From positions 757,501 to 821,500 of the forward strand of contig NC_016585.1 in assembly GCF_000283655.1 (NCBI RefSeq): a stretch of DNA of 64,000 nucleotides, given 5' to 3'. The stretch's first letter is position 1; the number at the start of each line of letters is the position of its first letter. The notes beneath the pieces were generated by a model. That model made no database searches and was not told the origin of the DNA. It saw only the letters and a list, made by a program, of their open reading frames with translations. Source of the stretch: Azospirillum lipoferum 4B (GTDB taxonomy: Bacteria > Pseudomonadota > Alphaproteobacteria > Azospirillales > Azospirillaceae). The translations under genes were made by a program, and so were the position numbers. Shown piece by piece: positions 24,300-40,060 of the stretch.

Positions 24300-24389
24300 G
24301 GAAGAGTGGCCGAGTGGTTTAAGGCAACGGTCTTGAAAACCGTCGTAGGTGTGAGCCTACCGTGGGTTCGAATCCCACCTCTTCCGCCA
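24300..24389 (+). tRNA. tRNA-Ser (anticodon TGA)
   Basis: 90-base class II tRNA. Acceptor GGAAGAG pairs with CTCTTCC. The D arm has GGCCGAGTGGTTTAAGGC, the anticodon TGA is at 24334-24336 in the loop CTTGAAA, the long variable arm is GTAGGTGTGAGCCTAC, the T loop is GGTTCGAATCC, and CCA is encoded at 24387-24389. Its 3' end serves as the integration site of the island that follows. Confidence 0.97.
24376..24389. repeat. attL core: 3' end of tRNA-Ser
   Basis: CACCTCTTCCGCCA at the tRNA 3' end recurs exactly at 40047-40060. Upstream of the core, GGTTC is also shared at the same distance, as if six bases between were diverged. Integration here keeps the tRNA intact, as tyrosine integrases usually do. 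Confidence 0.85.
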
Positions 24390-24396
24390 GAATTTG

Positions 24397-24441
24397 AGGC
24401 CAGCGCGTTGATTTCAAACAGAAATCCGCTCTGGCCTTTTT
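24397..24441 (+). terminator. hairpin terminator downstream of tRNA-Ser, island side
   Basis: AGGCCAG (24397-24403) pairs with CTGGCCT (24431-24437). An inner stem GATTTC/GAAATC (24410-24415 with 24421-24426) stacks on it, and TTTTT follows. It lies on the island side of the junction, so the island supplies the terminator of the tRNA it entered. Confidence 0.6.
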
Positions 24442-24446
24442 CATTT

Positions 24447-24465
24447 CCCCACGCTTTACCCCACA
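24447..24465. repeat. terminal direct repeat, possible integrase arm site (left copy)
   Basis: 19-bp CCCCACGCTTTACCCCACA matches 39907-39925 at 18 of 19 positions in direct orientation. It lies 58 bases inside the left core; the partner lies 122 bases inside the right core. Confidence 0.6.
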
Positions 24466-24703
24466 CTTTGAAGCGGATTGGGACGGCTGTTTGCGGACGG
24501 TCGCGGATGGTGCGAGGGGAAAGGGCATGTGCGTTACAGGACTCGTGTAACGCATAAATCGGCCCGTCCGTCAGACGTACAAGACCCCCTCCCGCCGGCT
24601 GTCGCCCTCGTAGACGCTGGGGCCGGTTTCGCCGGCAAGGATGCGCCCCACGGCCATGGCCGCGGTGACGTGCCAGCGACACTGCGATAGTGGAGCGTTG
24701 CCC

Positions 24704-25546
24704 CTACTTGCATTGCAGGTCCCACGCGAAAGGTGCCGCCCCCTGATAAAGCGCGGTCGCGGCGACCACGGCGAAGGGTTGCCCCTCGAACGTCACTACG
24801 TCCCCCGGCTTCGGCGCATTGGTGCAGCCGGCGGCGGTCAAGCGATCCTGCATGATGATGATCCGCCGGGTTCCGGTCACGACGGCTCCCGCCATGGCGT
24901 CGTCATAGCCCGCCATCCCGGCCAACACGGGATAGTCGCGGGCGAAGGTCAGCGTCACAGGCGCCCCGGCAGCGGCGGGCGCGGCCAGCGCCGGGGCGAT
25001 GCCCGCGCCGTCGAAGCGGCCAGATGCGGCTGTGGTGCTGGTGGTGATGGTGTAGACCACAGCCCCGATGGTTACGCGGTCGCCCGGCCGAAGCTGGCCG
25101 CCTACCAGGGTGCCGGCAATGTCGATCGACACAGCCCCGGCCGGCGCTGGTGCCGCCATGGCCCATTCGCTGCCCCGTGGGGGGTTCTGGTCTCGCCCCT
25201 CCCCGGACACGCTCCGGTACAGGATCGGGGCGCCCCACAGCACGCCACAGCTCCACACCAGCCCGTGCGGGTCATCCTCGGGGTGATAGGGCGTGCCGGT
25301 GATGGTATAGGCCATGGCGCCCACCCGGAACACGCCGCCAGCGGCAGGATCTGGCACCTCGGACGCGCGCACGTCGAAAGAGAGGCTGGAGAGGTAGACC
25401 GTCACCGGGCCGAACTTCACCGGCTTGCCGCCACCCTCCCGGATGACGCGGCAGGGGGTGGGCGATCCGCCGGACGGGGTGTAGGTCGCAGCCTCCCCGA
25501 AGGTCAGGAAGGACGGGGCGACGGCGAAGCGGTCGAAGTCGATCAT
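24704..25546 (-). CDS. gpFII-like head-tail stopper with C-terminal extension
   Basis: 280-residue last gene of the head module. The first 100 residues (MIDFDRFAVAPSF ... VFRVGAMAYTITGTPYHPED ... GLVW) follow the pattern of lambda gpFII-like joining proteins: an N-terminal helix, then a beta barrel ending in a G-x-Y-x-I-x(3)-P-x-x-D strand. The remaining 180 residues add two similar beta strands (GDRVTIGAVVYTIT and GDVVTFEGQPFAVV), making it more than twice the normal size. It lies about 80 bases after the DUF2190 gene, and nothing follows before the tRNA. It could cap the head and present a docking surface for a helper tail (inference). Confidence 0.55.
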   Translation of the reverse strand: MIDFDRFAVAPSFLTFGEAATYTPSGGSPTPCRVIREGGGKPVKFGPVTVYLSSLSFDVRASEVPDPAAGGVFRVGAMAYTITGTPYHPEDDPHGLVWSCGVLWGAPILYRSVSGEGRDQNPPRGSEWAMAAPAPAGAVSIDIAGTLVGGQLRPGDRVTIGAVVYTITTSTTAASGRFDGAGIAPALAAPAAAGAPVTLTFARDYPVLAGMAGYDDAMAGAVVTGTRRIIIMQDRLTAAGCTNAPKPGDVVTFEGQPFAVVAATALYQGAAPFAWDLQCK

Positions 25547-25629
25547 GGGGCACCGGAGGGGAAGATAGAGGGGGCGCGGCCTTCCCCGGCCGGGGTCGGG
25601 CGGGCCGCGCGCCCGTCATATGTGGCGGA

Positions 25630-25977
25630 TCAGGACGCGGCGACGGTGGACACGCCGTCCAGGCGCACCTTGACCGTCCCGGCCCCGTTGCCGGCGGCCT
25701 GGATGGCGGCACCGATGGGATAGCGGCCGGTGCCCGGCGCATCGCACCGATGGTTGGTCGCATCCCAGGACACCAAGCCCCCGGCCGCAATGACCGCCGT
25801 GCCCAGCTTGGGCAACTCGTAGACGCCTACGATTGCCAGCGACACCGGTTCGCCTTCGGTCGCCGTGGTCGCGGCCACGCCGAACAGCGCGCCAACGATG
25901 ACGCCGCCCCCGCTGGTGACGCCGCCGGCCGGGGCCGCGACGTTGATCGAGGCGCCGTTGTGAACGAAGTTCTTCAT
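25630..25977 (-). CDS. DUF2190 capsid decoration-like protein
   Basis: 115-residue Gly/Ala/Val-rich small beta protein. The profile MKNFVHNGASINVAAPAGGV then GVIVGALFGVAATTATEGEP and GVYELPK is typical of the DUF2190 family found directly beside phage capsid genes and thought to decorate or cement the shell. It lies three bases after the gpW-like gene and 83 bases before the stopper-like gene, all in one transcription unit. Confidence 0.8.
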   Translation of the reverse strand: MKNFVHNGASINVAAPAGGVTSGGGVIVGALFGVAATTATEGEPVSLAIVGVYELPKLGTAVIAAGGLVSWDATNHRCDAPGTGRYPIGAAIQAAGNGAGTVKVRLDGVSTVAAS

Positions 25978-25980
25978 GGG

Positions 25981-26196
25981 TTAGATCCCCTTACTGGATG
26001 AAACGCGGATGAAGGAGGCGCGCGGCGCGGTGCCGGCGGCGGCGATCTGCCGATCAAGGGCGGCCAGGGCGGCGGCCATTTCGGCGTCGCTCTTGAACTC
26101 CGTCTCCTTGCCGCCGTAGACCACGCGCCGCGCGCCGCTGTAGCGGGCCGCCTGGAGCGCGTCCCGCCACGAAATGAGGTCAGCCAGCGCCGCCAT
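25981..26196 (-). CDS. gpW-like head-tail connector
   Basis: 71-residue protein that matches the size and pattern of lambda gpW: two helices flanking a short hairpin, here RDALQAARYSGARRVVYGGK then TEFKSDAEMAAALAALDRQI. gpW-type proteins bind the portal ring after packaging and stop DNA leakage. The ATG at 26196 lies two bases after the capsid gene stop. A longer open frame upstream overlaps the capsid gene out of frame and is spurious. Confidence 0.75.
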   Translation of the reverse strand: MAALADLISWRDALQAARYSGARRVVYGGKETEFKSDAEMAAALAALDRQIAAAGTAPRASFIRVSSSKGI

Positions 26197-26198
26197 GG

Positions 26199-28139
26199 TC
26201 AGCCGTTGCCAGCGTTGTGGTGGGCGCCCCGGAAGTCGATGACGCCATAACCGAAGTCCAGCCCGGCCCGGACCTTCACCGCCTGGGTATCGAAATCGGT
26301 TTCCGTCTTGATCTGCGGACCTTCGGACCCGGCCACGTAGCCATAGACCACGGTCGGGCAAATCGCGGGGTCCGCCATCACATACCAGCCGTTGCCGGTG
26401 ATGTTGGCGTCGACAATCAGATCCATCATCCCGGCCCAGGGGTTGGTGTCGCCGGCCTTGGCCGGGGTGATGCTCGCCAGAACCTGCCGCCCCTCCAACT
26501 CCTTGTCCGGCCCGACCACCAGGAACCGCGGCGTCAGGTTGAGCGGGATACCGTCCAGCGACTTCATCTTGCGCAGCGCCGCCACCGCGGCGCCGACGCT
26601 CGCAACGGTGATGGCCGCACCGGCGGCGGCCTTGTTGCCGTGGTCGGCGTGGAACAGCGTCTTGCCGTCCGACATGACTGGGTTGACGGTCAGCAGGCCA
26701 TAGACCAGCCGGTTTTCGTCCGCCGCGGTGCGGATGGCGATCATGCTGGAGAAGTCCGACAGCGCCGACAGATCGTCGTTCACCAGGGCGCGGCGCCCGA
26801 TGATGATCCCCGTGGCGAACTCGGCCGCGGAGACCTGTTCCCGGTTCTCCGACATGGTGCCGTAATTCACCTCTCCCGACTCGGCGAGGTTCTGGAAGGA
26901 CGGGAAATCCCCCACGCGAAGGAACTTGTGCGGCTTGAAATCGGTGAAGCCGCGCCGGGCCGCCCACTGGCGATAGGTCGGGTTGGCGGCGGCGTAGCGC
27001 GCCAGCAGGATCTTGTTGCCGGCGTCGGCCAGCAGCAGCGGGAAATCCCCGGTGGTGTGCGCCCCGATGGCGCGTTCCATCAGCGCGTTCTGGTCGAAGC
27101 GGTTGAAGCGCTGCCCCCGCGCTACGGCCAGTTCACCCACCATGTCCAGCGCGCGGTGCCCCATGAACTCGCGCGCCCGGCCCTCGGGCTTCACCAGACC
27201 GGGAGCGAGGCGGGCGGCCAGCGCATCGGCCATGCTCCGGCGGATGGCGCTGGGGTCGGTGTGGTCGGTGCCGATCATGATCGGCGCGGCGTTGGAAATG
27301 GCGACGCCACCGCGGCGGGCCAGATCGGCGAAGGCGGCGGCACGGGCGGCCTCGACGGTGGCGCCGTTGTCGATCAGGCTGTCCGCGAAGCTGGCCGGCA
27401 GACCAGCCACATGGGCGATGGTGCGGATTTCCCGGTTGATTTGGGCGCGGGTGCCGTCCGTCGGGGGCGGGTTGCCGGCGGCGGGCGCGGGGGCAGGTGC
27501 GGGGGCCGGCGTGGGGGCGCCGTTGTCGTTTTCCGCGTCACGGACGCATCCGCCGAAAGAGGCGCATCCCTTCGGCGTGGCGCACGCCTCGCACGGCTTG
27601 AAATCCGGGTTCGGGTTCGCGGTGGGCATGGTGGTGTTGCTCCTGACGATAGCGCCCGCATCAACGGGCACGGGGGTGAAACTCAGCTCGTAGGGTTCCC
27701 AGGCGACGGCGCGGAAGACGCGCAAGCCGTCGCGGCGCCCGACCACCTGCCAGCGGGTGACGCGGTAGCCGAGCGAGACGCCGCGGACGATCCCGTCGCC
27801 AACGTCCTGCATCAGCTCGTCAGCCGCCGGCTTGCGGGAGAAGCGCACCGTTGCGTGGATCTGTCCGCCGGCCGCCAGCGCCGCCGTGTTCACCACGCCC
27901 ACCGCGTTGTCGGTGGTAGCGCGATGGTCCTTCAGCGCCGGCCCGCCGACGAAGCGCGCAAGGTCGGCTCCGGCCGCGTCCAGTTCTTCAATCCAGGCTT
28001 CGGCCGTGCCGTCCGGGGCCGGGGCCTTGCGAACGGCCGGGGCCAACCCGGACAGGGCCACCACATCGACCGTGCGGGTCTCCCGGTTGAGCGTGGCCGG
28101 GGTGGTGCCGCCAAGCGCGCGGGTCAACGTGTTGCTCAT
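26199..28139 (-). CDS. prohead protease/major capsid protein fusion
   Basis: 646-residue fusion. Residues 1 to about 165 are an HK97-type prohead serine protease: His72 in LKDHRATTDN and Ser122 in RGVSLGYRV are the expected catalytic residues. A linker follows with four cysteines (183, 186, 192, 198) and a Pro/Ala run (about 209-225). The capsid part runs from about residue 300 to the end (GELAVARGQRFNRFD ... TDFKPHKFLRVGDFPSFQ ... NPVMSDGKTLFHADHGN ... ITGNGWYVMADP). The protease and shell are usually separate genes, so the fused form may set a one-to-one ratio or act as an internal scaffold. It overlaps the preceding small gene by four bases. Confidence 0.88.
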   Translation of the reverse strand: MSNTLTRALGGTTPATLNRETRTVDVVALSGLAPAVRKAPAPDGTAEAWIEELDAAGADLARFVGGPALKDHRATTDNAVGVVNTAALAAGGQIHATVRFSRKPAADELMQDVGDGIVRGVSLGYRVTRWQVVGRRDGLRVFRAVAWEPYELSFTPVPVDAGAIVRSNTTMPTANPNPDFKPCEACATPKGCASFGGCVRDAENDNGAPTPAPAPAPAPAAGNPPPTDGTRAQINREIRTIAHVAGLPASFADSLIDNGATVEAARAAAFADLARRGGVAISNAAPIMIGTDHTDPSAIRRSMADALAARLAPGLVKPEGRAREFMGHRALDMVGELAVARGQRFNRFDQNALMERAIGAHTTGDFPLLLADAGNKILLARYAAANPTYRQWAARRGFTDFKPHKFLRVGDFPSFQNLAESGEVNYGTMSENREQVSAAEFATGIIIGRRALVNDDLSALSDFSSMIAIRTAADENRLVYGLLTVNPVMSDGKTLFHADHGNKAAAGAAITVASVGAAVAALRKMKSLDGIPLNLTPRFLVVGPDKELEGRQVLASITPAKAGDTNPWAGMMDLIVDANITGNGWYVMADPAICPTVVYGYVAGSEGPQIKTETDFDTQAVKVRAGLDFGYGVIDFRGAHHNAGNG

Positions 28140-28471
28140 GATGCGAGTCCTCCCGCGCTGGTGACGGTCACGGCTCCGAGATGTCGGGTCGGATCGTCCG
28201 TCCAGACCGACACCCGGTCGCCACCGCGCACGACAAATCGCTCAATGACGAAGGGGCAAAGGATGGCGTCCCCGGCGGTCGCGGTGGCGTCCGGCCCGAT
28301 GGCAATACGGCACGGGGCCGAGCAGGCGACGCGCACCACCCCAGCGGCCAGCGGCGGCGTGTGGACTGCCAGCGGGCCGTCGGCGGTCCACCCCAGGGCG
28401 TGGGTGTCGCCAAGGCGGATGTAGGGGAGCGGTTCGCCATTCTCGAACCGGGCAGCCTCAATGGCGCTCAT
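28136..28471 (-). CDS. small protein of the head module, unknown function
   Basis: 111-residue protein rich in short beta strands (VRVACSAPCRIAIGPDATAT, FVIERFVVRGGDRVSVWTDD), with no signal peptide. It overlaps the portal gene by four bases and the protease-capsid gene by four bases, so the three are translationally coupled. Position between portal and protease suggests a minor head or decoration protein. I do not recognise the family. Confidence 0.65.
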   Translation of the reverse strand: MSAIEAARFENGEPLPYIRLGDTHALGWTADGPLAVHTPPLAAGVVRVACSAPCRIAIGPDATATAGDAILCPFVIERFVVRGGDRVSVWTDDPTRHLGAVTVTSAGGLAS

Positions 28472-29916
28472 GCGTCGGCGTCCTCTGCGATGGTGGGGGC
28501 GGCGTCGAGCGGCGGGCCGCCGCTGTGACTTATGCCGATGTTCAGCCCCAGGCGCTTGGCGCGGGCGGTATCGGCGGCGATCTCCGCGTCCACCTGTTCG
28601 GGGTCGTAGCCCAGGCCGGTGACGACTTGGGCGCGGCTCTTAAAGCCAGCGTTGACCATCAGGATCTCGGCTTCGGCGTCCTTCTTCGGGTCCACCCATA
28701 CCGGTTTGGGCGGTAGCCACTCGACGCGATGGAAGGCCGCCGGGTTCGCCTCGTAGGCGCGGAAGTCGATCAAGCCGGACAGCAGGGCGGTTCGGATGAA
28801 GCGGTCCCACACCGGCCGGCAAAGGCGATAGACCAGAACGTTGTGCTGCCAATGCTCCAGCCGCTTGCGGAACTCTACAAGCCCGGCCCGGATCGAACTG
28901 TAGTTCACCCCGGACAGGTCGCCGGTCAGCAGCTCGTAGGGCACGCCAAGCCCGGCGGCGATGGCTTGAAGGTGGCTCTTGACGAACGCGCTGTAGTGCC
29001 TCGACTCCTTCGGGTCGAAGAACTCAAGCGACGTTCCCGGCTTCAGCGGGAGGATGGTCCCCGGCTCCAGACCGATGTCCAGAACGCCGCCATCAACCTC
29101 CCCCTGCAAGTCGCCTGCATCGCCGCTCGGGTCCACCAGCGCCGCACACAGCAGGTTCGCCAGCTTGGCGCGCACCAGGGCGGCGTCCTGAAGCTGGTCA
29201 ATCTCATGCACTGCCAACAGCACGGGCGCGAGCCACGACAGGCCGCGAAGCTGGCCGGGTTCCATCGGGTTGAACAGGTGGACCATATCCGCGGCGGCGA
29301 TTGGCACCGGGTTCCACAGCCCGGCCAGCGGCGTCATCGGATCGTCCGGGCGGGCGGGGAGGACGTGATAGGCGATCCGCCGGCCGGCGGCGTCGAACTC
29401 GATACCGCCCCGAATGCGATTGTCCACCAGCGCCGAAAGGGTTTCGAGCGGGACTTGTGCCGGATGGATCACCTGGATCTGAAAGGGCACCTCCAGCCAG
29501 TCGCCGGGGCCGGTGGTGACGAACCGGGCGAAGCTCTCCCCCGCTTCGACCATCTGGCGCACCATGAGCGCCTGCATGGCGTAGAAGTCGCCGAAGCCGT
29601 CCACGTCGCATTGGTCGGTCCAGCGCGCCCACAGGGCATGCAGGGCCTCGCGCGTCTTCGGGTCGGGGTGTTGCGAGGATGGCTTGATGCCCGGCCCGAC
29701 GATGTTCGTCACCAGTGCGTTCACCGCCGCGGTGACGTGGGCGTTGTTGCGGGCGAAATAGGCCGCCCGGCGCTGGATCGTGGCGGCGGTCGCCAGAATG
29801 TCGCTGTTCAGGTTGCTGACGGTGCGGGCGTTCGCGAGGCGCCCACCGCCGGCCGCGTCAAGCGAGCGGCGGCCGGCGGTCATAGCGGAAATGAAGCGGC
29901 GAACAGTCCCAAGCAT
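28468..29916 (-). CDS. phage portal protein, lambda gpB type
   Basis: 482-residue portal of the lambda family, forming the dodecameric DNA channel at one capsid vertex. Recognisable stretches are ARNNAHVTAAVNALVTNIVG, VNYSSIRAGLVEFRKRLEHW, FLDPKES-like EFFDPKESRHYSAF, and the C-terminal VDAEIAADTARAKRLGLNIG. The N-terminal segment is typical. The start ATG (MLGTVRRF) has its purine-rich GAGGGG site inside a small hairpin. An 80-base AT-rich spacer separates it from the large terminase. Confidence 0.9.
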   Translation of the reverse strand: MLGTVRRFISAMTAGRRSLDAAGGGRLANARTVSNLNSDILATAATIQRRAAYFARNNAHVTAAVNALVTNIVGPGIKPSSQHPDPKTREALHALWARWTDQCDVDGFGDFYAMQALMVRQMVEAGESFARFVTTGPGDWLEVPFQIQVIHPAQVPLETLSALVDNRIRGGIEFDAAGRRIAYHVLPARPDDPMTPLAGLWNPVPIAAADMVHLFNPMEPGQLRGLSWLAPVLLAVHEIDQLQDAALVRAKLANLLCAALVDPSGDAGDLQGEVDGGVLDIGLEPGTILPLKPGTSLEFFDPKESRHYSAFVKSHLQAIAAGLGVPYELLTGDLSGVNYSSIRAGLVEFRKRLEHWQHNVLVYRLCRPVWDRFIRTALLSGLIDFRAYEANPAAFHRVEWLPPKPVWVDPKKDAEAEILMVNAGFKSRAQVVTGLGYDPEQVDAEIAADTARAKRLGLNIGISHSGGPPLDAAPTIAEDADA

Positions 29917-29997: not shown

Positions 29998-31863
29998 TTA
30001 GCCTTTTTGTAGATAGCTTGACCGGATCGGGGAGCGCGCCCGCGGCGTCGGCGCAACGCGCACCGGCCCGGCCGGAGCCGCCGCCCGCAAGGGGGCAACC
30101 GCCAGCCGGCCCGCTTCCCGCTCAAGATCCAGCCCCATCGCATACAGCCCATGCAGCGCGGCCAGCGCATACACGTAGCAATCCAGGGCCTCGTTGCGCG
30201 CCTTGTCCGGCAGACGCCATTCCCGCACCGGATGACCCTTGCTGTAGCGCGTCACCACCCGTTCGGCCGTAAGCTGGGTGAACCACGAGTCCGACAGTGA
30301 GGCGTCAAAGCCGATGTAGCCGGGCGCCCCCGACTCTGTATTGCGCAAGCGCCCGTAAAGGGTGCTCTTGCACTCGTCCACGCCCACGGAAAAGACGTTC
30401 GCGCCCCCTTTGCCCTTGCCGGCCCGCTTTGGCCAGATCGGCACACCGGGGCCGCCGCGCCCCTTCACTGCCCAATAGCGCTCTCTCGCGTGGGCGCGGC
30501 AGTAGGTATAGACCGTGCTGGTATGATGGCCGCCAGAGTCTACGCACACGGCGCGGGGCACCAGATCGGGCACAGCTCGGGCGTGCGGGATCGGCGTGTG
30601 CAACAGGTCGTCCAGATCGGTCCATACCTGTTTCCCGCTGGGGTCGCCGTACAGGATGACGTGCTTGAAGACGGTGGATCGTTCATCCACATGCCACGCG
30701 ACGAACTGAACCTCCAGCCGGTCGTCCTGAACGTCCACCCCCACCGTTACCAGAAGCGTGTCCGCTGGCAGCACGCCGCCGTGGTCGATCCGCCGGCCGG
30801 GCAAGCCTTCATCCTTCAGCCCTTCGCCGTCTTCAACGCGCCAGGTCTCGGCCAGCACGGTATTGACGAACACCCGCAGCCGGGGGGGATCCTTGCGCGC
30901 CTTGGCATGGTGGGCAGCCATTGCGCCATAGCGCAGCCAGGGCGAGTAGAGACCGGAAATCCAATAGCCGGCCATGGTGGGGTCTCCGCCTTCAGCCGTT
31001 GCCCGCCATTCGCCGTTGCGGAGCTGTTCGGGCTTGTCGAAATCGTCGTGGGGCCGTCCACAACTCGGGCAGACCAGCACGGCCTTGTCCGGCTGCCCCT
31101 TGGGCCATTGGATGTCCGCAAAGGTGATGACGAATGCGTGTCCGCACTGAAGGCAGGGCACGAAATACTTCTGCTGCGAAGTCTCCAGATAGGCGCGGGT
31201 GATCCTGCACGTCCCCTCGTCCAAGGGCGTGCTGGTCAGCAGCGTCTTCGCCGTGTGCGGGTAGGTGTATTGCCGGGCCGACACGAGGTCGAGTACGTCG
31301 CCCTCGTCGGTCGATCCGGGGAAGGCGGACACCTCGTCCAACAGGGCGAAATTGATCGGGCTGGAGCGCAGGGGGGCCGGGGCGTTTGCCCCGGTGATGA
31401 TAAGGTCCCCGCCCCCGATCAGCCGCTTGTGAAAGGTCGTGTTGCCGCGCTCGCGGCTGCGCTCCGGGATCAGTCGGGATTTCACCTCGGGCACCATGGC
31501 CATGGCCGGATCGAGGCGGGACGTGATGACGCGCTTTGCCACATCAACCGTGGGCCACACGCACATGATCGGCTTGGGATCGTTGGCGATCCAGTAGCAC
31601 ACCGCCGACAGCAGCAGCTCCGTCTTGCCGAGCTGGGCACCAGCGCAGACCACCACCGTCTTGATACCACTGGTGGTGGACAGATCGTCCAGTGGCTTGC
31701 GGAAGTAGGGGGTGGCGTCGAAGGAGAATTTCCCCGGCAACGCCGCACTGGCATCCAGCTTGCGGTGCGCTTCTGTCCATTCGGACGGCGACATGTCCGG
31801 GGGCGGGGCCAACCCGGCCGCGACAATCGCCAGGGCGCGGGCTTCAAGATCAGCGGTCAGCAT
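29998..31863 (-). CDS. terminase large subunit, gpA family
   Basis: 621-residue packaging motor of the lambda gpA type. The ATPase has Walker A CAGAQLGKTE (residues 73-82) and a Walker B-like FALLDEVSAFPGS. A zinc finger (FVPCLQCGHAF ... LVCPSCGRPHDDF) follows near residue 240. The RNase H-like nuclease has TVGVDVQDDRLEVQFVAWH and AVCVDSGGHHTSTVYTYCRA. A C-terminal Arg/Pro tail is present. It overlaps the small subunit gene by 14 bases. The gpA type implies cos-type cutting of concatemers. Confidence 0.93.
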   Translation of the reverse strand: MLTADLEARALAIVAAGLAPPPDMSPSEWTEAHRKLDASAALPGKFSFDATPYFRKPLDDLSTTSGIKTVVVCAGAQLGKTELLLSAVCYWIANDPKPIMCVWPTVDVAKRVITSRLDPAMAMVPEVKSRLIPERSRERGNTTFHKRLIGGGDLIITGANAPAPLRSSPINFALLDEVSAFPGSTDEGDVLDLVSARQYTYPHTAKTLLTSTPLDEGTCRITRAYLETSQQKYFVPCLQCGHAFVITFADIQWPKGQPDKAVLVCPSCGRPHDDFDKPEQLRNGEWRATAEGGDPTMAGYWISGLYSPWLRYGAMAAHHAKARKDPPRLRVFVNTVLAETWRVEDGEGLKDEGLPGRRIDHGGVLPADTLLVTVGVDVQDDRLEVQFVAWHVDERSTVFKHVILYGDPSGKQVWTDLDDLLHTPIPHARAVPDLVPRAVCVDSGGHHTSTVYTYCRAHARERYWAVKGRGGPGVPIWPKRAGKGKGGANVFSVGVDECKSTLYGRLRNTESGAPGYIGFDASLSDSWFTQLTAERVVTRYSKGHPVREWRLPDKARNEALDCYVYALAALHGLYAMGLDLEREAGRLAVAPLRAAAPAGPVRVAPTPRARSPIRSSYLQKG

Positions 31864-32395
31864 GGGCGGCCTCCGACAACTCGCGAAGGTGGGCAGTCAC
31901 GAACTTGCGCAGCGTCGCCGTCAGCGTGGCGCCGTCGACCTTCAGTTCCGCGGCCATGTCGGGAACCACACGCTGCGCCCACGCCATCCAAGCATCCCGG
32001 TTGCGCCGGCCATGCTCGAACAGCACGCGGTTGATCTCAGCCCATGGCGCCACATCGCCGCGGGCGAGTTCCAGCGCCAGCCGGGCGCGCTCCACCTTCA
32101 ACCATTCGTGTTCGGTGCGGGCGGCGATCAGGTCGCCGTCCTCCCCGCCCTCTGCATCGCCATCCGCCGGCGCGGGAACAGGCGGCACCAGGGCGGGGCG
32201 GGCCTTGGCCTTGGATTGGGCGACGCGCTGGGTAGGGTCGAGTTCGCGGCTCATCCACTCCAGCGCAGCGCCCACGTCCACCTTGCCGTCCGGCGTGACG
32301 GGAAGGCCCTTGGCGGCAAGCTGGGTGATGCGGGGCCGGCTCAAGCCGACGCGACGGGCGAAAGCCGCTTTCGTTTCGATGACGGGTCCGGGCAT
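31850..32395 (-). CDS. terminase small subunit-like protein
   Basis: 181-residue protein with an N-terminal helix-turn-helix (KAAFARRVGLSRPRITQLAA then KGLPVTPDGKVDVGAALEWM) and a helical C-terminal half (TEHEWLKVERARLALELARG), the layout of gpNu1-type small terminases that bind the packaging site. The ATG at 32395 has GAGGTG six bases upstream; the frame is open to 32467. It is directly upstream of, and overlapping, the large subunit. The DNA just upstream carries GTTAAG repeats that could be its binding site. Confidence 0.82.
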   Translation of the reverse strand: MPGPVIETKAAFARRVGLSRPRITQLAAKGLPVTPDGKVDVGAALEWMSRELDPTQRVAQSKAKARPALVPPVPAPADGDAEGGEDGDLIAARTEHEWLKVERARLALELARGDVAPWAEINRVLFEHGRRNRDAWMAWAQRVVPDMAAELKVDGATLTATLRKFVTAHLRELSEAAHADR

Positions 32396-32488: not shown

Positions 32489-32725
32489 TCAGCCCCGACT
32501 GCCCTTGGTGTGGGGGGAAGGACCCTTCCGGCCCGACCGTCCCCCGGCCCGCTGTCTCCTCTGCAGGGCTACCAGAACGCCGTCCAGTTCGGTGTCGCGG
32601 GCGGGAACCTCTCCGATCACCCTCAACGCCGCGTCGATGCGGGAGCGCCGCAGAGGCCGGCTGTCAAAGATCACGGGCGCAAGCATCTGCTCGATCAGGC
32701 TGTGACGGGAAACCGGGTGGACCAT
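32489..32725 (-). CDS. small island protein of unknown function
   Basis: 78-residue basic protein (MVHPVSRHSLIEQMLAPVIF at the N-terminus; C-terminus rich in Arg, Gly and Ser). It has a good ribosome-binding site, AAGGA nine bases before the ATG, which is the main reason for calling it. It sits between a 223-residue island gene and the small terminase in the same orientation. The helical N-terminal half could bind nucleic acid or a partner. A plus-strand frame over the same bases lacks such a site. Confidence 0.55.
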   Translation of the reverse strand: MVHPVSRHSLIEQMLAPVIFDSRPLRRSRIDAALRVIGEVPARDTELDGVLVALQRRQRAGGRSGRKGPSPHTKGSRG

Positions 32726-32753: not shown

Positions 32754-33425
32754 TCAGCGGGAGTGGTGGGGACGTTCGCTCTTCAGGGCGAACCCGGCGG
32801 CAGCCAGCAGCTCGCGCACGGCCGCCTTCTGTGCGTCCGTCGCCGGGGGTGTGGCGTCGTCTTGCCGTTGGCGGGCCAGCATGGCGCGGGCGCCGCTGTT
32901 GCCCTTGGCGAGCACGTTCAGCCGCTCCCATTGCGCCCGCAGATGTGCCCGTTCGCCGTCCAGGGCGGCGGACAGCTCCGGCCAACTCGGCCACCACATC
33001 GGCCGGTCGGCGGCGGAGAGCCGCTTCATGACCCGATCCAGCGCACCGGGGTCGTTGATGATCGCCGCGGGATACTCGGCCCGCAGGATCGAAGAAACCG
33101 CACCCATCAGCTTGCTTTCGGGCGGCAACTCCTTGCCGGCGCAGAGGTTAGCCAGATGCGCCACGAAGGCTTCCGCCTCTCCTTGGGTCGCCGGCCTGGA
33201 ACGAACCTTCAGCACGCCCAACGCATGCACCGCCTCGCGCTTCATCGCGTCGGTGATGACGGCCGGCGGCTGCCAGGGAAGCGGCCGGTTCTCGGTCCCA
33301 TGCTCGGTGAACACGACGGTTTCAGGCGTCTTCAGCGCAGCCTGCAAGGTCGCGGTCAAGTATTCGCTGGAAGCGGTTTGCTGGGGCCGAAGGCCGTACG
33401 GATTGAATTCCACGACGTTGCTCAT
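32754..33425 (-). CDS. island protein after the replication gene, unknown function
   Basis: 223-residue soluble protein. Its middle part is helical with WPSWPELSAALDGERAHLRA, and the ends are low complexity. The start (MSNVVEFNPYG) has GAAGGAA six bases upstream, so it is translated independently although its first 104 bases overlap the 3' end of the replication-like gene in another frame. The position after a DnaD-like initiator is where phages place helicase-loader or P-like genes, but no Walker motif is visible, so no function is assigned. Confidence 0.7.
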   Translation of the reverse strand: MSNVVEFNPYGLRPQQTASSEYLTATLQAALKTPETVVFTEHGTENRPLPWQPPAVITDAMKREAVHALGVLKVRSRPATQGEAEAFVAHLANLCAGKELPPESKLMGAVSSILRAEYPAAIINDPGALDRVMKRLSAADRPMWWPSWPELSAALDGERAHLRAQWERLNVLAKGNSGARAMLARQRQDDATPPATDAQKAAVRELLAAAGFALKSERPHHSR

Positions 33426-34173
33426 GCGGCGTTCCTTCGGGCATCGGGCGGTTGCGGGTGGCGAGTGCGTCGGCAATGGCTTGGTCGAAATACTCCAAGC
33501 CCCTCGGTGGCCCTTGGGCGCGTCGACGTGACATGACCCGCTGAATAGCCGGGTAGATGTCCGTGTCGGGGTCTGCGCCGTCGGCCAGCCACTGGGCAAC
33601 GCGGCCCCAGTTGCCGAACCATCGGGGATCATTCTCGACGCCGATCAGCCGCAGAACCTCGCGACCGACCACCGTGACCGACGCGCGCGCGTCATCAGCA
33701 GGAAGATCTTCTGTATTCTGGAGTCTGAGATCTGTCGCGCGCAGAGGCGGCAACGTTGCATCCGGATCATGCAACGTTGCATGACCGTCGCGGGTAGGGT
33801 CGCCGTCCGTTTCTGCAACGTTTCCGTCACGCTCATGAGCGGGCTTCTTCGCGCGATGGCGCTTCGACCGCTCATTCACATCGTCGGTCTTGAACTGGCG
33901 CTTGTCCCAAGCTGACAACCGGTCGCCGTCAAGAACAACCCCAGCCATAGCCGTGCGGATGGCTTCCACAGCGGCGCCCTTCAGATCCAAGGCAGCCCCG
34001 GTCAGACGGTCGTTCCAGCCGGTCAGAGTTCCGCGGGGTTCGGCGCCCGATGCATGGCACAGCATCGCCATCCAGACGGCCAACACGGCATGAACCGGCT
34101 GCTCCGTCTCAATGGCGATCATGCGCCACTTCGGGTCATTGACGGTTTCGTTGTAGAGGCGGAGCCACTTCAT
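33322..34173 (-). CDS. replication initiator-like protein (winged helix)
   Basis: 283-residue protein. The start MKWLRLYNETVNDPKWRMIA and the following hydrophobic helices (VHAVLAVWMAMLCHASG) are the pattern of phage replication/DnaD-like proteins common in alphaproteobacterial prophages, which open with a winged helix that recognises an origin. A polar, charged linker (about residues 100-165) leads to a C-terminal domain with WFGNWGRVAQWLADGADPDT and YFDQAIADALA. The frame is open further upstream, but this ATG fits the family. It is the only replication gene in the element. Confidence 0.68.
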   Translation of the reverse strand: MKWLRLYNETVNDPKWRMIAIETEQPVHAVLAVWMAMLCHASGAEPRGTLTGWNDRLTGAALDLKGAAVEAIRTAMAGVVLDGDRLSAWDKRQFKTDDVNERSKRHRAKKPAHERDGNVAETDGDPTRDGHATLHDPDATLPPLRATDLRLQNTEDLPADDARASVTVVGREVLRLIGVENDPRWFGNWGRVAQWLADGADPDTDIYPAIQRVMSRRRAQGPPRGLEYFDQAIADALATRNRPMPEGTPHEQRRGIQSVRPSAPANRFQRILDRDLAGCAEDA

Positions 34174-34282
34174 ACCGGACCTTCGCGGATGGGGCATAAG
34201 CGGAGTATCGGATCGGGCCGGTACGCTGCTTGATCGGCACCCGCCACAAACGGCGGATGACTGCCGGGCGGGTGGGGCGTCG

Positions 34283-34576
34283 TTACGCCCCGGCGCCGCC
34301 GGCCAGCGCGGCCAGGAAATCAGCCGGCGTGGTGGTGATGATGCGGCGGCGACCGACGGTGACGGACTGAACCGTGCCATCGGCGATCATCTCGTAGAGC
34401 TTCGAGCGCCCCAGGCCGGCGGCATGGCACCATTCGTTGACGGTGTAGCCCACCTTGTGGACGCGCTGGGGGGCACTGGGGTTGGAGACAGGCGGCTCGG
34501 CTTGATCCAGGCAAACCGGGGGCGTTTGCAGCCGGGGGGTGCGCCCCGGCCGCTCGTTCAGTGCGGTCATGTTCAA
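34283..34576 (-). CDS. AlpA/excisionase-like HTH protein
   Basis: 97-residue protein with a MerR-like helix-turn-helix of the excisionase/AlpA type: VGYTVNEWCHAAGLGRSKLY then EMIADGTVQSVTVGRRRIIT, about residues 43-80. The first 40 residues are a disordered Pro-rich extension. The site TGGAG precedes the ATG. In satellites AlpA-type proteins switch on the excision and replication genes, and here it lies directly upstream of the replication-like gene. It could equally be the excisionase for the tRNA-Ser integrase. Confidence 0.78.
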   Translation of the reverse strand: MNMTALNERPGRTPRLQTPPVCLDQAEPPVSNPSAPQRVHKVGYTVNEWCHAAGLGRSKLYEMIADGTVQSVTVGRRRIITTTPADFLAALAGGAGA

Positions 34577-34633: not shown

Positions 34634-35341
34634 TTACATGTCGCCGCGCAGGCGGCGGGCGTGCAGGCGGACGTTGAGGCGGCGGTCCACCTCGGAAAGC
34701 AGATCAGTCACATTGATCATGTTTATGGACCGAACCGGTTCCACGACATCGGGGTCGATGTTGATTTTGCGGAGACGCTCGGTGAAATGCTGGCAGGCCA
34801 ACACGGTGTTGACTTCAGGGCCATCCACGAGCATGGCCTCTCGACCTACCATCTGATGTGCGGGCGGGAGCACCCAGATCAACGGCTTCGCCTTACGTTG
34901 ATCCGAGCGATCCAGGATTTCCGCATTAAAATAGAGCCACGGATAGTCGACGAAGCGACCGTATTCCGCCTGGGTTTTGATTGACGACTCTTCAACGTAA
35001 CGGCCCTGCATGCCGTCAAACATGATGGCGTGCCGCGTTTCATCATCGAGAGCATTAAGGCGGTGCGTCGCGCATCCCTCCATGTAGCCAAACAGATGAC
35101 GGACAGCAGCAGCGGTCCCTTCGCGCGGCATATGCAAATTGACGGTCATATTCAGAGCGTATTCATAGACATGACCAATGCGAAACTTCGGCCGGGCCGG
35201 GTTTTCGTCGATACGCGGCAGAGTAACCAGACCATGACGTTCCAGGTTCTTGCGGAAGTCGGGGAAATTGTGGTGGCCCAATGCAAACGCCACGTCGGCG
35301 TTGTCATAGCTGGCCTTTAAGATGTCAGGAATGTTGTGCAT
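34634..35341 (-). CDS. island protein, possible DNA-binding regulator
   Basis: 235-residue protein I do not recognise. The N-terminal 60 residues (ALGHHNFPDFRKNLERHGLV then RPKFRIGHVYEYALNMTVNL) look like a MerR-type winged-helix unit, in which a helix-turn-helix is followed by a hairpin and a helix. The remainder is mixed alpha/beta with no clear motif. It has its own promoter with a consensus TTGACA next to an 8-bp palindrome, and its upstream DNA carries the iteron-like hairpin region, so a role in regulation or replication control is plausible. Confidence 0.62.
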   Translation of the reverse strand: MHNIPDILKASYDNADVAFALGHHNFPDFRKNLERHGLVTLPRIDENPARPKFRIGHVYEYALNMTVNLHMPREGTAAAVRHLFGYMEGCATHRLNALDDETRHAIMFDGMQGRYVEESSIKTQAEYGRFVDYPWLYFNAEILDRSDQRKAKPLIWVLPPAHQMVGREAMLVDGPEVNTVLACQHFTERLRKINIDPDVVEPVRSINMINVTDLLSEVDRRLNVRLHARRLRGDM

Positions 35342-35596: not shown

Positions 35597-36229
35597 TCAA
35601 AGTCGTGGGGCGGTTCCCTCATGAAGCCGCTCCAAGAACTCCGTGGCCTGCCGAACGGCTTCGATCAGGCAGGCGCCATATCCTCCCTCCAGCCCCAGGG
35701 GACCGGTCGCGACGCGGAGCTTCACGATGGCATCGGAGAGGGTCGACGGGGCGGTTTCATGGATCGCCTGTGCGATGTCGGCGATTTCCTCGCTGAAGGC
35801 GTCCGACTCCTTCACCGTGAGATGGTCGGTCGACGTCAACAGGCCGGCGGTGATGCGGTCCTCGGCCTGGACGAAGGTCAGCCCCAGCGCGGGAATGACG
35901 GTCGATCGTGCCAGCGCTAGGGAAGCCGGCGTGTCGGTCGGGACGTTCAGCCGGCGACGGACTTCGGCTTCAGCGGCGGCCTTGGCAGCCTCGAAGCTGT
36001 CGGCCGGTCCCCCGGCAACCCCCGTCATGAACTGTGGGCCGGTGTGCAGCTCCCACGCGATGAGGCGCGGATGCGGCCCGGCCGGTGGGATGTCGAAGGC
36101 GATCAGCTCATAGGCGTCGACGATGGCGCGCTGGGCACTGGTAGCGCTCCACATCTCCGACAGCTTGCGCCAGACGATGGGCAAGGCAGGGGCGTTCGCG
36201 CCGGCCGGCGCGTTGCTGGGGATCGACAT
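35597..36229 (-). CDS. island protein, paralogue A of a tandem pair
   Basis: 210-residue protein of unknown family. The N-terminal NAPAGANAPALPIVW, the central strand PRLIAWELHTG with a following Ala-rich helix (SFEAAKAAAEAEVRRRLNVP), and SDAIVKLRVATGPL all have counterparts in the next gene upstream (36314-37090), so the two arose by duplication. There is no signal peptide, membrane helix or catalytic motif. A small soluble beta-alpha domain seems likely. Confidence 0.68.
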   Translation of the reverse strand: MSIPSNAPAGANAPALPIVWRKLSEMWSATSAQRAIVDAYELIAFDIPPAGPHPRLIAWELHTGPQFMTGVAGGPADSFEAAKAAAEAEVRRRLNVPTDTPASLALARSTVIPALGLTFVQAEDRITAGLLTSTDHLTVKESDAFSEEIADIAQAIHETAPSTLSDAIVKLRVATGPLGLEGGYGACLIEAVRQATEFLERLHEGTAPRL

Positions 36230-36313: not shown

Positions 36314-37090
36314 TCAGGCGGAAGGGGAGGAAGAGTGGTCCGGCCCCTTAGCCGGCTGTTCCCGGCGGCGCCGGTCGATGCGATCCACCAAGCGATCTCC
36401 GGGCCGGATCATGCTCCAGAGCATGCCGGCGTGCGGATCGTTGTCGACGATGTCGTGAAAATCCCTGTCCGGGTCGTCGCCGAACACGAGCGCATTCCAA
36501 GCGCAATCTGCGTCGATGTACTTGGTCAGCGCATAGCGAAGCTTGATTTCGGTCCCTTCAAGGGTCTTCGGGATGAAGGCCTCGATGCGCTCGCCGATGG
36601 CGTCGACCATCTCGCAGTACCGGTCGGTCTCGCCATCGGGGGCGCACTGGTAGGCCGTGGCGGCGGCCTGGAAGGCGTCCCAGGCAAACAGCAGCTCGCT
36701 ATCCAGATGGGCGCCCGGCCGGACGCCGCGCTTCGGCATGCCGTTCACACAGGCAGGAATGACGCGGCTGCCAGCGCCGTTGTTGTTTGGGTCCGAAGGC
36801 GTGTCGGTCAGCAGCCGGCGGGCCTTCGACTCGGCGGCGGCCTTGCCGTCGTCGGTGGTATCGAGAACGCCTTCACCCAGGCGCTTGCCGTCCTTCTCGA
36901 CGGTCCACAGCACGATGCGGGGCCAGCCGCTACGGGATTGGGAGTCGTGAACCTCCAGCGCGTAGGGGCCGGCCTGTGCGGTGGAGATGATCACGGAGCC
37001 GCCACCGGGGCCGGGAAGGTGGCGGGTGGTCCAGGTGATGGGCGTAGCTGGGGCGTTCGCGCCCGTGGGCGCGTTGGTGATGGTCGTCAT
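36314..37090 (-). CDS. island protein, paralogue B of a tandem pair
   Basis: 258-residue protein of unknown family, related to its downstream neighbour (35597-36229) in three blocks: NAPTGANAPATPITW, PRIVLWTVEKDGKRLGEG with DDGKAAAESKARRLL, and TEIKLRYALTKYI. It has a longer C-terminus with an acidic stretch and a basic tail (RIDRRRREQPAKGPDHSS). There is no signal peptide. The pair occupies the slot between the regulatory switch and the replication module, typical for variable satellite or phage early genes. Confidence 0.68.
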   Translation of the reverse strand: MTTITNAPTGANAPATPITWTTRHLPGPGGGSVIISTAQAGPYALEVHDSQSRSGWPRIVLWTVEKDGKRLGEGVLDTTDDGKAAAESKARRLLTDTPSDPNNNGAGSRVIPACVNGMPKRGVRPGAHLDSELLFAWDAFQAAATAYQCAPDGETDRYCEMVDAIGERIEAFIPKTLEGTEIKLRYALTKYIDADCAWNALVFGDDPDRDFHDIVDNDPHAGMLWSMIRPGDRLVDRIDRRRREQPAKGPDHSSSPSA

Positions 37091-37348: not shown

Positions 37349-37391
37349 GAGGTGCCTACCTGTTGTCTGAATGCTCAAAGCCGTCTACACT

Positions 37392-37421
37392 GATAACAAG
37401 TTAGGGATAGACGTTATCCCT
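37392..37421. promoter_or_regulatory. operator region between divergent island genes
   Basis: AGGGATA (37403-37409) and TATCCCT (37415-37421) form a perfect inverted repeat with a five-base centre. GATAAC (37392-37397) also pairs with GTTATC (37413-37418), and a third GATAAC overlaps the start of the HTH gene. This lies in the 92-base spacer between the 67-residue gene and the XRE-type regulator, as expected for an autoregulated switch. Confidence 0.55.
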
Positions 37422-37440
37422 GTCAACAAGGTTGTTAGCA

Positions 37441-37677
37441 ATGATAACGCCCGCTCAGTGCCGGATGGCGCGTGCTGCCCTTCAGATCGGCGTTCGTGAT
37501 CTAGCGGAGTCTTCCGGTGTGTCCGCCATGACAATCACCCGGTTTGAGACTGGCAAAACCAAAGGCTATGCCGAGACGTTGGAAAAGCTCCAGCGCGCAC
37601 TAGAAGCGGCCGGCGTCGAGTTCATCCCAGAGAACGGGGGCGGGGCCGGGGTACGGTTAAGAAAGGAAGTATTGTGA
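37441..37677 (+). CDS. XRE/Cro-type HTH regulator
   Basis: 78-residue helix-turn-helix protein: ITPAQCRMARAALQIGVRDL then AESSGVSAMTITRFETGKTK is a standard Cro/C1 domain. It is followed by a short helix (TLEKLQRALEAAGVEFI) and a basic tail. The ATG at 37441 is used; a TTG three codons earlier is less likely. The stop overlaps the GTG start of the DUF4145 gene, so both are translated together. Its operator probably lies just upstream. It may be the island repressor or the dedicated regulator of the DUF4145 gene. Confidence 0.85.
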   Translation: MITPAQCRMARAALQIGVRDLAESSGVSAMTITRFETGKTKGYAETLEKLQRALEAAGVEFIPENGGGAGVRLRKEVL

Positions 37678-38378
37678 TTTCTAGACTCTGGAGAAGCCCT
37701 TTCTCTGTTCTTCCTAATTGGCGATGCCCAAGATGTGAAAGGGGGCATTTTCAGTTAGATGGAGAAGTTAAAGCCAGATACCCTCTTGGTTGGGAGGAGC
37801 ATATTAGTATACACGAAGTTTCGGGATATTTTAGCGCTTCGATGATTTGCTCATACAAGTCGTGTGGACAGGATTTGTTGGTGCATGGTGAGTTCGATAT
37901 GGATTTTGATGGTACTGTAAATGACTATGGGGATTACGAATTGGTTGAGATGCTTTATCCAAAATCTATAATTCCCGCAATACCAATTATTGATCTTCCA
38001 AACGAAATTCCAGTGAAAACTAAAAGGCAGTTTGAGCGCAGTTTTTCTTTATTCTGGATGGATCGGGCGGCGTGTGCATCAGTTTTAAGAACCGCTATAG
38101 AAAGCATAGCTGATGATTTGAGGATACCAAGGGAGTGGTCGAGAGGTCATTGGATGACTTTGTCGCATCGGATAGGAATTTTAAATCAAACTCACCCACC
38201 ACTCGCCGATGCATTTCATGTAATTAAGGATTTAGGCAATCAAGGCGCCCACACAGACGAAGTAGATACAGAAAGATTGCTTAAAGCTTTTGAGTTAATG
38301 GAGATTGACTTGGATGAGATATACAGCAGCAAGAAAGCGGCACGAACTAGGTTAATTGAAGAACTAAGAAAAAAGTAA
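37674..38378 (+). CDS. DUF4145-domain protein, AT-rich cargo
   Basis: 234-residue protein with GTG start overlapping the HTH stop. The N-terminal half has two cysteine pairs (WRCPRCERG and CSYKSC) likely to bind zinc. The C-terminal half is a DUF4145 domain: RAACASVLRTAIESIADDLR, then LSHRIGILNQ, then VIKDLGNQGAHTDEV. Base composition is strikingly AT-rich compared with everything around it, so it arrived separately. DUF4145 proteins recur near restriction and other defence genes, and this pair sits in the integrase-proximal cargo slot. An anti-phage role is a hypothesis. Confidence 0.78.
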   Translation: MISRLWRSPFSVLPNWRCPRCERGHFQLDGEVKARYPLGWEEHISIHEVSGYFSASMICSYKSCGQDLLVHGEFDMDFDGTVNDYGDYELVEMLYPKSIIPAIPIIDLPNEIPVKTKRQFERSFSLFWMDRAACASVLRTAIESIADDLRIPREWSRGHWMTLSHRIGILNQTHPPLADAFHVIKDLGNQGAHTDEVDTERLLKAFELMEIDLDEIYSSKKAARTRLIEELRKK

Positions 38379-38405
38379 TCGAAAAGTGCTGTTGGAGTGT
38401 TGATC

Positions 38406-38519
38406 CTGACCCTTACCATTGTGGAGGGTCGGGGCGCCGAGAATGCCGATGTCGGTATTTCCGACACCAGCTCGGAGACGTTGATGACCCTCTCCATGGT
38501 GGAGAGGGTCATCAACGTC
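38406..38519. repeat. cluster of three palindromes between convergent genes
   Basis: A perfect 20-bp inverted repeat (38477-38496 with 38500-38519, loop TGG) is preceded by TGTCGG-TATTT-CCGACA (38450-38466), which is enclosed by CCGAG/CTCGG (38437-38441 with 38471-38475). It is also preceded by a decayed relative, GACCCTTACCA-TTG-TGGAGGGTC (38408-38430). It lies between the DUF4145 gene and int, so it may be a bidirectional terminator, but the size and perfection are unusual. Confidence 0.75.
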
Positions 38520-38606
38520 GGGAGTAGCCAGCGCCCTGGTAGCGTCCATACTGCGAATGCTATCCGTCAGCGCTCTTGAAAGGGCGTCGATACTATCGAA
38601 ACCCTT

Positions 38607-39842
38607 TCAGCCCGCCACAGCCTCCCTGACCCCTGCCAGCACCGCGCCGGCCGCCTCCCTCATGCAGAAGCTGGCCCATGCCTTCATCAACACGCGCCGC
38701 TTCTCCAACAGGTCGCCGCGGCGATAGGCGGCCTCCACCTTGTTCTTGATCGTGTGGGCCAGCGCCATCTCCGCCACGTCGCTGGGGGTGTTCGTCGTCT
38801 CGGCCGTCCAGTCGCGGAAGGCGGAGCGGAAGCCATGGGCGGTCGCCTCCACCTCCATCCGGCGCAGCAGCATCGTCAGCGTCATGTCGGACATGGGCTT
38901 GCCCGGCTTGGCGCCCTCGAACACCAGGGCCTCGGGATCGTCGGGCTTGCGGGCCAGCGCGCGGGCTTCCTGCAGGATCTGCAGGGCGCGCGGGGCCAGC
39001 GGCACCACATGCGGCTTGCCGGCCTTCATCCGCTCGGCCGGGATCGTCCACAGCCCGCCTTCCAGGTCGAACTCCCGCCACACAGCGCCGCGCATCTCCC
39101 CCGACCGAACCGCGGTCAGGATCAGGAACTCCATCGCCAGTGCGACCACAGGGCCGGCCTTGTTGGAGCCGCGCAGCTTGGTCAGGAAGCTGGGCACGTC
39201 GTCATAGGGCAGGGCGGCGAAATGCCCGCCGGCCTCCTTCTGTTTGGGCAAGCCCTTGGTGACGCCGCGCACCGGGTTCTCTCCATCCCGGAAGCCCTTG
39301 GCGGCTGCCCAATCCAGCACGATCCCGATCCGCTGGCGGAGCCGGCGGGCGGTCTCCGGCTTCTCCAGCCAGATGGGCAACAGCACGTCGCGCACCTCGG
39401 GCGTTCCGATCCGGTCGACGGTCAGCGTGCCAAGCTGTGGGAAGGCGTAGGTCTCCAAGGTATTGAGCCACTGGTCCGCGTGCTTGCCGTTCTTCCAGCC
39501 GTCCTTCCGCTCCTCGTGGCAGGTGCGGGCGGCTTCCGCGAAGCTGGGCACCACCCGTCGGGCGGCCTTGCGTTCGGCAAGCGGGTCTCCGCCGGCGCGG
39601 GCAACCCGCCGCATCTCCAGAGCCGCGTCGCGTGCCTCTGCCAGCGTCACCAGGGAGGCGGAACCCAGGCCGATGTCCCGTCGCCTTCCATGGATGGTGA
39701 TGCGCAGCAGCCAGCGCCGGGCGCCCGACTCGTCCACGTCCAGATACAGGCCATTCCCGTCCGCATGCCGGCCGGGCTTCCGAGTCTTCACCGTGACGGC
39801 GGTCAGTGCCTTTTCAGGGTGCCGGCCGAGTCGCTTGGGCAT
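38607..39842 (-). CDS. int: tyrosine integrase of the island
   Basis: 411-residue P4/DUF4102-type site-specific recombinase. An N-terminal arm-binding domain (GLYLDVDESGARRWLLRI) is followed by a core-binding domain and the catalytic domain. Arg246 in ILTAVRSGEMRG, His336 and Arg339 in AHGFRSAFRDW, His363 in ALAHTIKN and the nucleophile Tyr373 in AAYRRGD complete the active site. The length is normal and nothing is disrupted, so it is probably functional. It lies about 200 bases inside attR and reads away from it, the usual arrangement for tRNA-targeting elements. Confidence 0.95.
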   Translation of the reverse strand: MPKRLGRHPEKALTAVTVKTRKPGRHADGNGLYLDVDESGARRWLLRITIHGRRRDIGLGSASLVTLAEARDAALEMRRVARAGGDPLAERKAARRVVPSFAEAARTCHEERKDGWKNGKHADQWLNTLETYAFPQLGTLTVDRIGTPEVRDVLLPIWLEKPETARRLRQRIGIVLDWAAAKGFRDGENPVRGVTKGLPKQKEAGGHFAALPYDDVPSFLTKLRGSNKAGPVVALAMEFLILTAVRSGEMRGAVWREFDLEGGLWTIPAERMKAGKPHVVPLAPRALQILQEARALARKPDDPEALVFEGAKPGKPMSDMTLTMLLRRMEVEATAHGFRSAFRDWTAETTNTPSDVAEMALAHTIKNKVEAAYRRGDLLEKRRVLMKAWASFCMREAAGAVLAGVREAVAG

Positions 39843-39906
39843 GGGGGCTTTCCTTGATCGAAATGGTCAACCCCACATTCGGGGGCCAGGGAACCGAATT
39901 CCCGTG

Positions 39907-39925
39907 CCCCACGTTTTACCCCACA
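39907..39925. repeat. terminal direct repeat, possible integrase arm site (right copy)
   Basis: CCCCACGTTTTACCCCACA, 18 of 19 bases identical to 24447-24465 and in the same orientation, between int and attR. Confidence 0.6.
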
Positions 39926-40046
39926 AAGCATTACCGGTATAGGTGGAAAGTCGCGGACAAGGGCAAACGAAGGCGTGTCCTTGTATTGAGGAAAATCAAA
40001 TACATGGCGGATACTGACGGACATTGGTGGATAGCGGTTCTATAGT

Positions 40047-40060
40047 CACCTCTTCCGCCA
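40047..40060. repeat. attR core
   Basis: CACCTCTTCCGCCA repeats the 3' end of tRNA-Ser exactly. The bases just upstream (GGTTC, then six mismatched bases) resemble the T arm, so the original crossover segment may have been longer. Confidence 0.85.

Follow-up and report, generated by a model that had tools for sequence, protein, structure and literature searches.

A probable phage satellite encoding its own head in Azospirillum lipoferum 4B, and its tail-less relatives in other genera

The soil bacterium Azospirillum lipoferum 4B possesses an integrated element that carries an ordered set of phage head genes and lacks recognizable tail and lysis genes. Is such an element a damaged prophage, or does it form heads of its own and rely on another phage for the rest of the particle? 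It occupies positions 24376–40060 (15,685 bp, precisely bounded) of a 64,000-nucleotide stretch of the genome, hereafter the window. An earlier note on this DNA, made from the letters alone, had assigned it to the plan of capsid-forming phage-inducible chromosomal islands (cf-PICIs). Based on its boundaries, gene content and relatives, we consider it likely that the element is a phage satellite that builds and fills its own heads and takes the tails of a helper siphophage, and thus would work in a manner similar to that of cf-PICIs.

The ends of the element are marked by an exact 14-bp repeat, CACCTCTTCCGCCA, one copy of which lies at the 3′ end of a tRNA-Ser gene. The last 25 bp of this gene agree with the second att copy at 20 of 25 positions, and the runner-up on the plus strand of the 64-kb window agrees at 16 of 25. 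An empty site was found in three of the 28 relatives' loci examined (L275, L276 and L279), where the tRNA end directly joins the sequence lying past position 40060 in the window (89, 81 and 89% identity, respectively, over about 1.5 kb). The 15.7-kb size and the att repeats at tRNA-Ser given in the earlier note are therefore borne out. The same element is present in the same tRNA-Ser gene of Azospirillum agricola (G029), whose acceptor stem is different. The att core there, CACCCCATCCGCCA, is exact at both ends and differs from that of the window; because the core changes in step at both ends, the pair did not arise by chance. In addition, an IMG/VR provirus (IMGVR_UViG_2511231221_000004) covers window positions 24704–39842 with 100% identity. 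At the same tRNA-Ser gene of three other genomes (L289, L297 and L300 of G018, G037 and G031, respectively), about 60–110 bp of adjoining sequence show 72–77% identity to the element end beyond the tRNA; these perhaps belong to other elements that use the same site.

We scanned the open reading frames (ORFs) of the window against PHROGs and Pfam, and some of them against NCBIfam (Table 1). The head genes and the integrase gene are on the minus strand, and the genes for a helix-turn-helix (HTH) protein and a DUF4145 protein (37432–38378) are divergently oriented on the plus strand. Inward along the minus strand, the integrase gene is followed by genes for three proteins without a family match, a weak excisionase-like HTH protein, a replication initiation protein, a conserved protein, TerS and TerL; the order then continues with the portal, a 111-residue protein, a protease-capsid fusion, gpW, a DUF2190 protein and a gpFII-like protein. 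All members of the head set (TerS, gpA-type TerL, portal, protease-capsid fusion, gpW, DUF2190 and gpFII-like proteins) matched PHROGs or Pfam families, as the note had predicted; the integrase, with an open reading frame, and the replication protein were likewise identified by profile matches. The gpW match falls on the C-terminal end of an ORF spanning 25981–26967. The match to the proposed AlpA-like switch is weak: the gene product, which has a homologue in A. agricola (51%), matched the excisionase-type family TIGR01764 below the cut-off and matched no PHROGs or Pfam family at an E-value of 0.001.

The absence of tail, baseplate and lysis genes was examined by profile and phmmer searches. 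None of the window ORFs scanned matched a tail-tube, tip, baseplate or lysis family of PHROGs or Pfam, in agreement with the note. The single tail-labelled match, phrog_1302 ("distal tail protein", E-value of 1e-8), is on the C-terminal part of the gpFII-like connector. No gene lies between that of the connector and the tRNA, which leaves no space for a tail module at the place where tailed relatives have one; the larger proteins without a family match are encoded between the integrase and terminase genes. These three proteins of 210–258 residues and some small ORFs, together with the limits of profile searches, are what could be cited for a small autonomous phage with tail genes diverged past recognition. 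However, the element has no space for tube, tape-measure, tip and lysis genes, and the tailed relatives keep their tail genes downstream of the connector, so that we give this explanation hardly any credence.

Relatives of the head genes were found by terminase (28 of 61 genomes), portal (28 of 385 genomes of the class and 30 of 82 of the order at an E-value of 1e-60) and capsid searches (14 of 45 Azospirillum genomes at an E-value of 1e-30), all of which count satellites and prophages together. The earlier note had set the recurrence of the bounded tail-less form as a test in advance, and the form does recur: besides A. agricola at tRNA-Ser, tail-less elements are present at tRNA-Lys in Pararhodospirillum oryzae (47-bp repeat, 13.8 kb), at tRNA-Glu in G459 (44-bp repeat, 15.1 kb) and at tRNA-Gly in G321 (49-bp repeat, 11.8 kb). 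G104 has one at tRNA-Arg with a 20-bp repeat and an integrase in two pieces, and the element of G365 at tRNA-Gly (48-bp repeat, 17.8 kb) additionally carries a tape-measure gene. The repeat scan covered 31 loci, many of them without flanks, and detected tRNA repeats in four (G459, G321, G104 and G365). The occurrence of relatives in other genera points to a lineage and not to a single broken virus. The note had also described a pattern that would speak against a satellite, namely close relatives in which this locus holds these head genes with tail and lysis genes after them; none was seen, and the nearest case, L033 (identical to L084), is located elsewhere.

We then pooled 90 non-head ORFs from seven tail-less elements (the window, A. 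agricola, P. oryzae, G459, G321, and the IMG/VR contigs L081 and L091, whose ends are unmapped). The families listed (25 of 27 for Pfam and 25 of 91 for PHROGs) include integrases (phrog_1, seven members), HTH/AlpA regulators, primases, single-stranded DNA-binding protein and TerS. Among the matches listed, no tube, tip or lysis family was present, and the only tail-labelled family was phrog_1302, with three members.

The portal tree separates these elements from tailed phages. Among its 45 rows, 32 split from 13 tailed rows, three of which are reference phages, with a support of 100/100. The 32-row clade consists of 17 rows without tail matches, 13 with a tape measure only and two identical rows with tube genes; 30 of the 32 thus have no recognized tail-tube or tip genes, and the distribution of tailed and non-tailed rows corresponds to two changes on the tree. 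A prophage of A. agricola (L260) is placed on the tailed side. The rows were chosen by similarity to the portal and capsid of the window, and therefore the tree documents their clustering and does not represent tailed phages in their full diversity.

The ratios of nonsynonymous to synonymous substitution rates between the window and A. agricola were 0.16 for TerS, 0.16 for the portal, 0.25 for the capsid, 0.24 for gpW, 0.24 for DUF2190, 0.30 for the FII protein, 0.26 for the integrase and 0.12 for the available C-terminal part of TerL. All eight measured genes (0.12–0.30) are under purifying selection. These data bear on the possibility that the element is a decaying prophage from which the tail and lysis genes have been deleted. 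Its head genes are of phage type, and broken relatives do occur: no TerL was found in L056 of Rhodospira trueperi, which has a recombinase-like ORF split in two, and in L226 the integrase matches fall into two segments separated by a long ORF. On the other hand, both att sites of the window element are intact, its integrase, replication and head genes are open, the measured genes are constrained, the tail-less plan is found at different tRNA genes in different genera, and the portal tree sets such elements apart from tailed phages. We accordingly regard decay of a prophage as improbable. It also seems quite improbable that the element is a Gram-negative PICI (GN-PICI) that captured late genes, is packaged in helper heads and has no need of its own: the whole set from TerS to the connector is ordered, recurrent across genera and constrained, which dispensable capture does not predict.

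If the element is a satellite with its own heads, as we favor, its connector would fit the tail of a helper. The C-terminal part of the two-domain connector is also found in neck genes of Azospirillum siphoprophages. Outside these elements, the connector is present in nine Azospirillum genomes, with tail genes downstream in eight of the nine; the ninth is on a 3.7-kb contig. A. agricola itself carries a prophage (G029 C27, L260/L261) with the same two-domain connector followed by tail genes, and this siphoprophage is a candidate helper. L105 and L123 share 86% identity in the portal and 59% in the connector, whereas L105 and the window share 49 and 60%, respectively; connectors and heads are decoupled. 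From these features, the following course can be proposed. Infection by a helper, or induction, would lead to excision of the element, which would replicate from its own initiator. The protease-capsid fusion, portal and cement protein would assemble a prohead, TerS and TerL would package the element's own DNA, and gpW and the gpFII-like connector would close the head. A tail with the same connector in its own neck would then dock, and the helper would supply lysis.

A second copy in A. agricola (L078 and L076, on contigs C58 and C8) has head genes with about 95% DNA identity to copy A, and we infer that the two contigs represent one copy. The C8 sequence past TerS cannot be aligned to copy A and contains transposase-like ORFs, recognized by eye. 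The head set seems to move as a cassette.

Several points weigh against the satellite interpretation. Particle formation, excision and transfer are predictions from the genes; the AlpA match is weak, and the scan of the window ORFs gave no HNH gene. The A. agricola copy was assembled from two contig ends, each of which breaks off within TerL, and we assign them to one element by inference from the att core that they share. Of the 13 tailed rows in the portal tree, seven (L046, L117, L130 and L132–L135) were labelled on two or three matches only. The phmmer-based detection at first overlooked a real siphophage tail, so that elements other than the seven pooled ones are labelled tail-less with less certainty. 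L033, identical to L084 (G014), is on the satellite side of the portal tree and carries Z, U, V, G and tape-measure genes, but matched none of the tip or lysis references used; since 13 of the 32 rows also have a tape-measure-like gene, the lineage is not uniformly head-only. Finally, the window and the A. agricola prophage share 38% identity in the FII protein, 44% in DUF2190 and 32% in the portal, so that the connector appears to resemble helper connectors only a little more than the other head genes do.

Known cf-PICIs may use other capsid families. The element has a gpA/lambda-type terminase, a lambda-family portal and a gpT-like protease-capsid fusion, in which it probably differs from them. 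It resembles them in possessing a site-specific integrase with att sites, its own replication gene (primases in relatives), TerS/TerL, portal, protease, capsid and connectors, in lacking tail and lysis genes, and in size (15.7 kb versus a mean of 14 kb; PMC10803314). The cf-PICI packaging set is described as including an HNH endonuclease (PMC10690885). No HNH family was found in the window ORFs scanned or among the Pfam families listed (25 of 27) for the seven pooled elements, and the gpA-type TerL brings its own nuclease domain. The host also differs, in that the list of hosts in PMC10803314 does not name the Alphaproteobacteria; cf-PICIs are called widely distributed across Bacteria (PMC10690885), and three capsid radiations of them have been reported (PMC11389934). 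Because HNH was not found and the AlpA match is weak, we do not assign the element to the cf-PICIs. Of the plan that the earlier note put forward, the own head genes and the missing tail hold, and the tail-less form recurs; neither membership in the family nor a particular size of the heads follows.

Other known systems are less similar. GN-PICIs and helper-embedded PICIs (PMC10111431) share the arrangement of integrase, excisionase-like and replication genes followed by a late zone; the window element differs from them in its complete head set, in an AlpA-like gene that does not adjoin the integrase gene and in its location in tRNA-Ser rather than a helper late gene. The Streptomyces satellites MulchRoom and MiniFlayer likewise encode capsid and packaging genes and depend on another phage, but are described as lacking obvious replicases and having virulent helpers (PMC10690885), whereas the window element is integrated and has a replication initiation gene. 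The lambda-like Azospirillum prophages represented by that of A. agricola have homologous TerL, portal, capsid, gpW, DUF2190 and two-domain connector genes, and differ in that terminator, tail-tube and tape-measure genes come after the connector.

Related elements that encode a capsid are also present within the late genes of tailed prophages in two genomes, as with helper-embedded PICIs (PMC10111431). A single tailed prophage of G010 (C2 1072000–1123900; L269, L041, L305 and L272) contains two. The first splits the portal gene near residues 204–211, where only a 10-bp exact repeat was seen; the second, which encodes a TerL, portal and capsid of its own, interrupts the FII connector gene, where it left a 17-bp repeat. 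In G038 (C2; L306, L271, L307, L274 and L308), the portal gene is split at the same site as in G010. The embedded elements have the same orientation, and G038 apparently has more than one copy. Given that helper-embedded PICIs are known, such embedding is not new in kind (PMC10111431). The embedded elements tie the lineage to tailed prophages with the same connector and tail family.

The chances seem evenly balanced that Alphaproteobacteria harbor a separate, old radiation of head-encoding satellites with lambda-type packaging and a protease-capsid fusion, which swap a two-domain connector to fit local siphophage tails; some, with a tape measure of their own, could determine how long the borrowed tail is, and others would be integrated in the portal or connector gene of the tail-donor prophage, with excision restoring helper head assembly. 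If so, terminase and capsid types would differ from the known plan, a contrast drawn partly from general background, and the connector would provide a testable key to the matching of helper tail and satellite head, in hosts suited to work in ordinary laboratories. Head genes of this kind are common (capsid in 14 of 45 Azospirillum genomes, satellites and prophages together), and the combination of own head and borrowed tail would have originated in, or reached, a bacterial class beyond the hosts for which it is described (PMC10803314).

Table 1. Features of the element and its integration site, in window coordinates
Feature	Position	Strand	Evidence
tRNA-Ser(tga), integration site	24300..24389	+	ARAGORN
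att core at tRNA 3′ end, CACCTCTTCCGCCA	24376..24389	+	repeat search, empty-site comparison
Two-domain head-tail connector, gpFII-like N-domain and C-terminal part	24704..25546	-	PF05354 (E 2e-20), phrog_1302 (E 1e-8); model and folds
DUF2190 cement/decoration protein	25630..25977	-	PF09956, phrog_122
gpW-like head-tail adaptor, start codon inferred from ORF translation	25981..26196	-	phrog_2545 (E 3e-15)
Head protease-major capsid fusion	26199..28139	-	phrog_4523 (E 8e-167), PF25209
111-aa protein	28136..28471	-	no match in PHROGs, Pfam, NCBIfam
Portal, lambda family	28468..29916	-	PF05136 (E 2e-97)
Terminase large subunit, gpA type, ATPase and nuclease domains	29998..31863	-	PF05876, PF20454
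Terminase small subunit, start inferred	31850..32395	-	phrog_57 (E 1e-28)
78-aa ORF preceding TerS	32489..32725	-	no family match; similar ORF at equivalent A. agricola place, by eye
Conserved protein h292, start inferred	32754..33428	-	homologues in related elements
Replication initiation protein, start inferred	33322..34176	-	phrog_3729 (E 1e-18)
Excisionase/AlpA-like HTH protein, weak	34283..34576	-	TIGR01764 (E 5e-5), below cut-off
235-aa protein	34634..35341	-	no match in PHROGs, Pfam, NCBIfam
210-aa protein	35597..36229	-	no match in PHROGs, Pfam, NCBIfam
258-aa protein	36314..37090	-	no match in PHROGs, Pfam, NCBIfam
HTH regulator	37432..37677	+	phrog_18104; HTH_31 just under cut-off; homologues in many related loci
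DUF4145 protein	37674..38378	+	PF13643, phrog_1305
Tyrosine integrase	38607..39842	-	PF22022, PF13356, PF00589
Second att core, CACCTCTTCCGCCA	40047..40060	+	repeat search, empty-site comparison

Just past the 3′ end of the integrase gene, a 43-bp stretch (38477–38519) matches its own reverse complement at 93% and may be a terminator or recombinase arm sites. Copy A of A. agricola has two extra genes between the tRNA and the connector (L031 12256–13903), coding for a 178-residue protein without assigned function and an HTH protein with an HExxH-type motif seen by eye; the latter is probably the Peptidase_M78 match of the pooled scan, and the two genes are possible cargo. In the tape-measure subgroup, the gene follows DUF2190 (L233 3609–6575, L055 14313–16349, L217 9086–11659 and L042 6767–8455), with no tube or tip gene matching the references used. 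The degenerate relative in R. trueperi, whose split recombinase-like ORF was recognized by eye, adjoins tRNA-Gln and retains the genes from portal to DUF2190. A further locus at tRNA-Gln, L270 3724–18456 of G007, showed no portal or TerL match, and comprises 14.7 kb between 47-bp repeats with a capsid fusion and, by eye, an integrase-like ORF.

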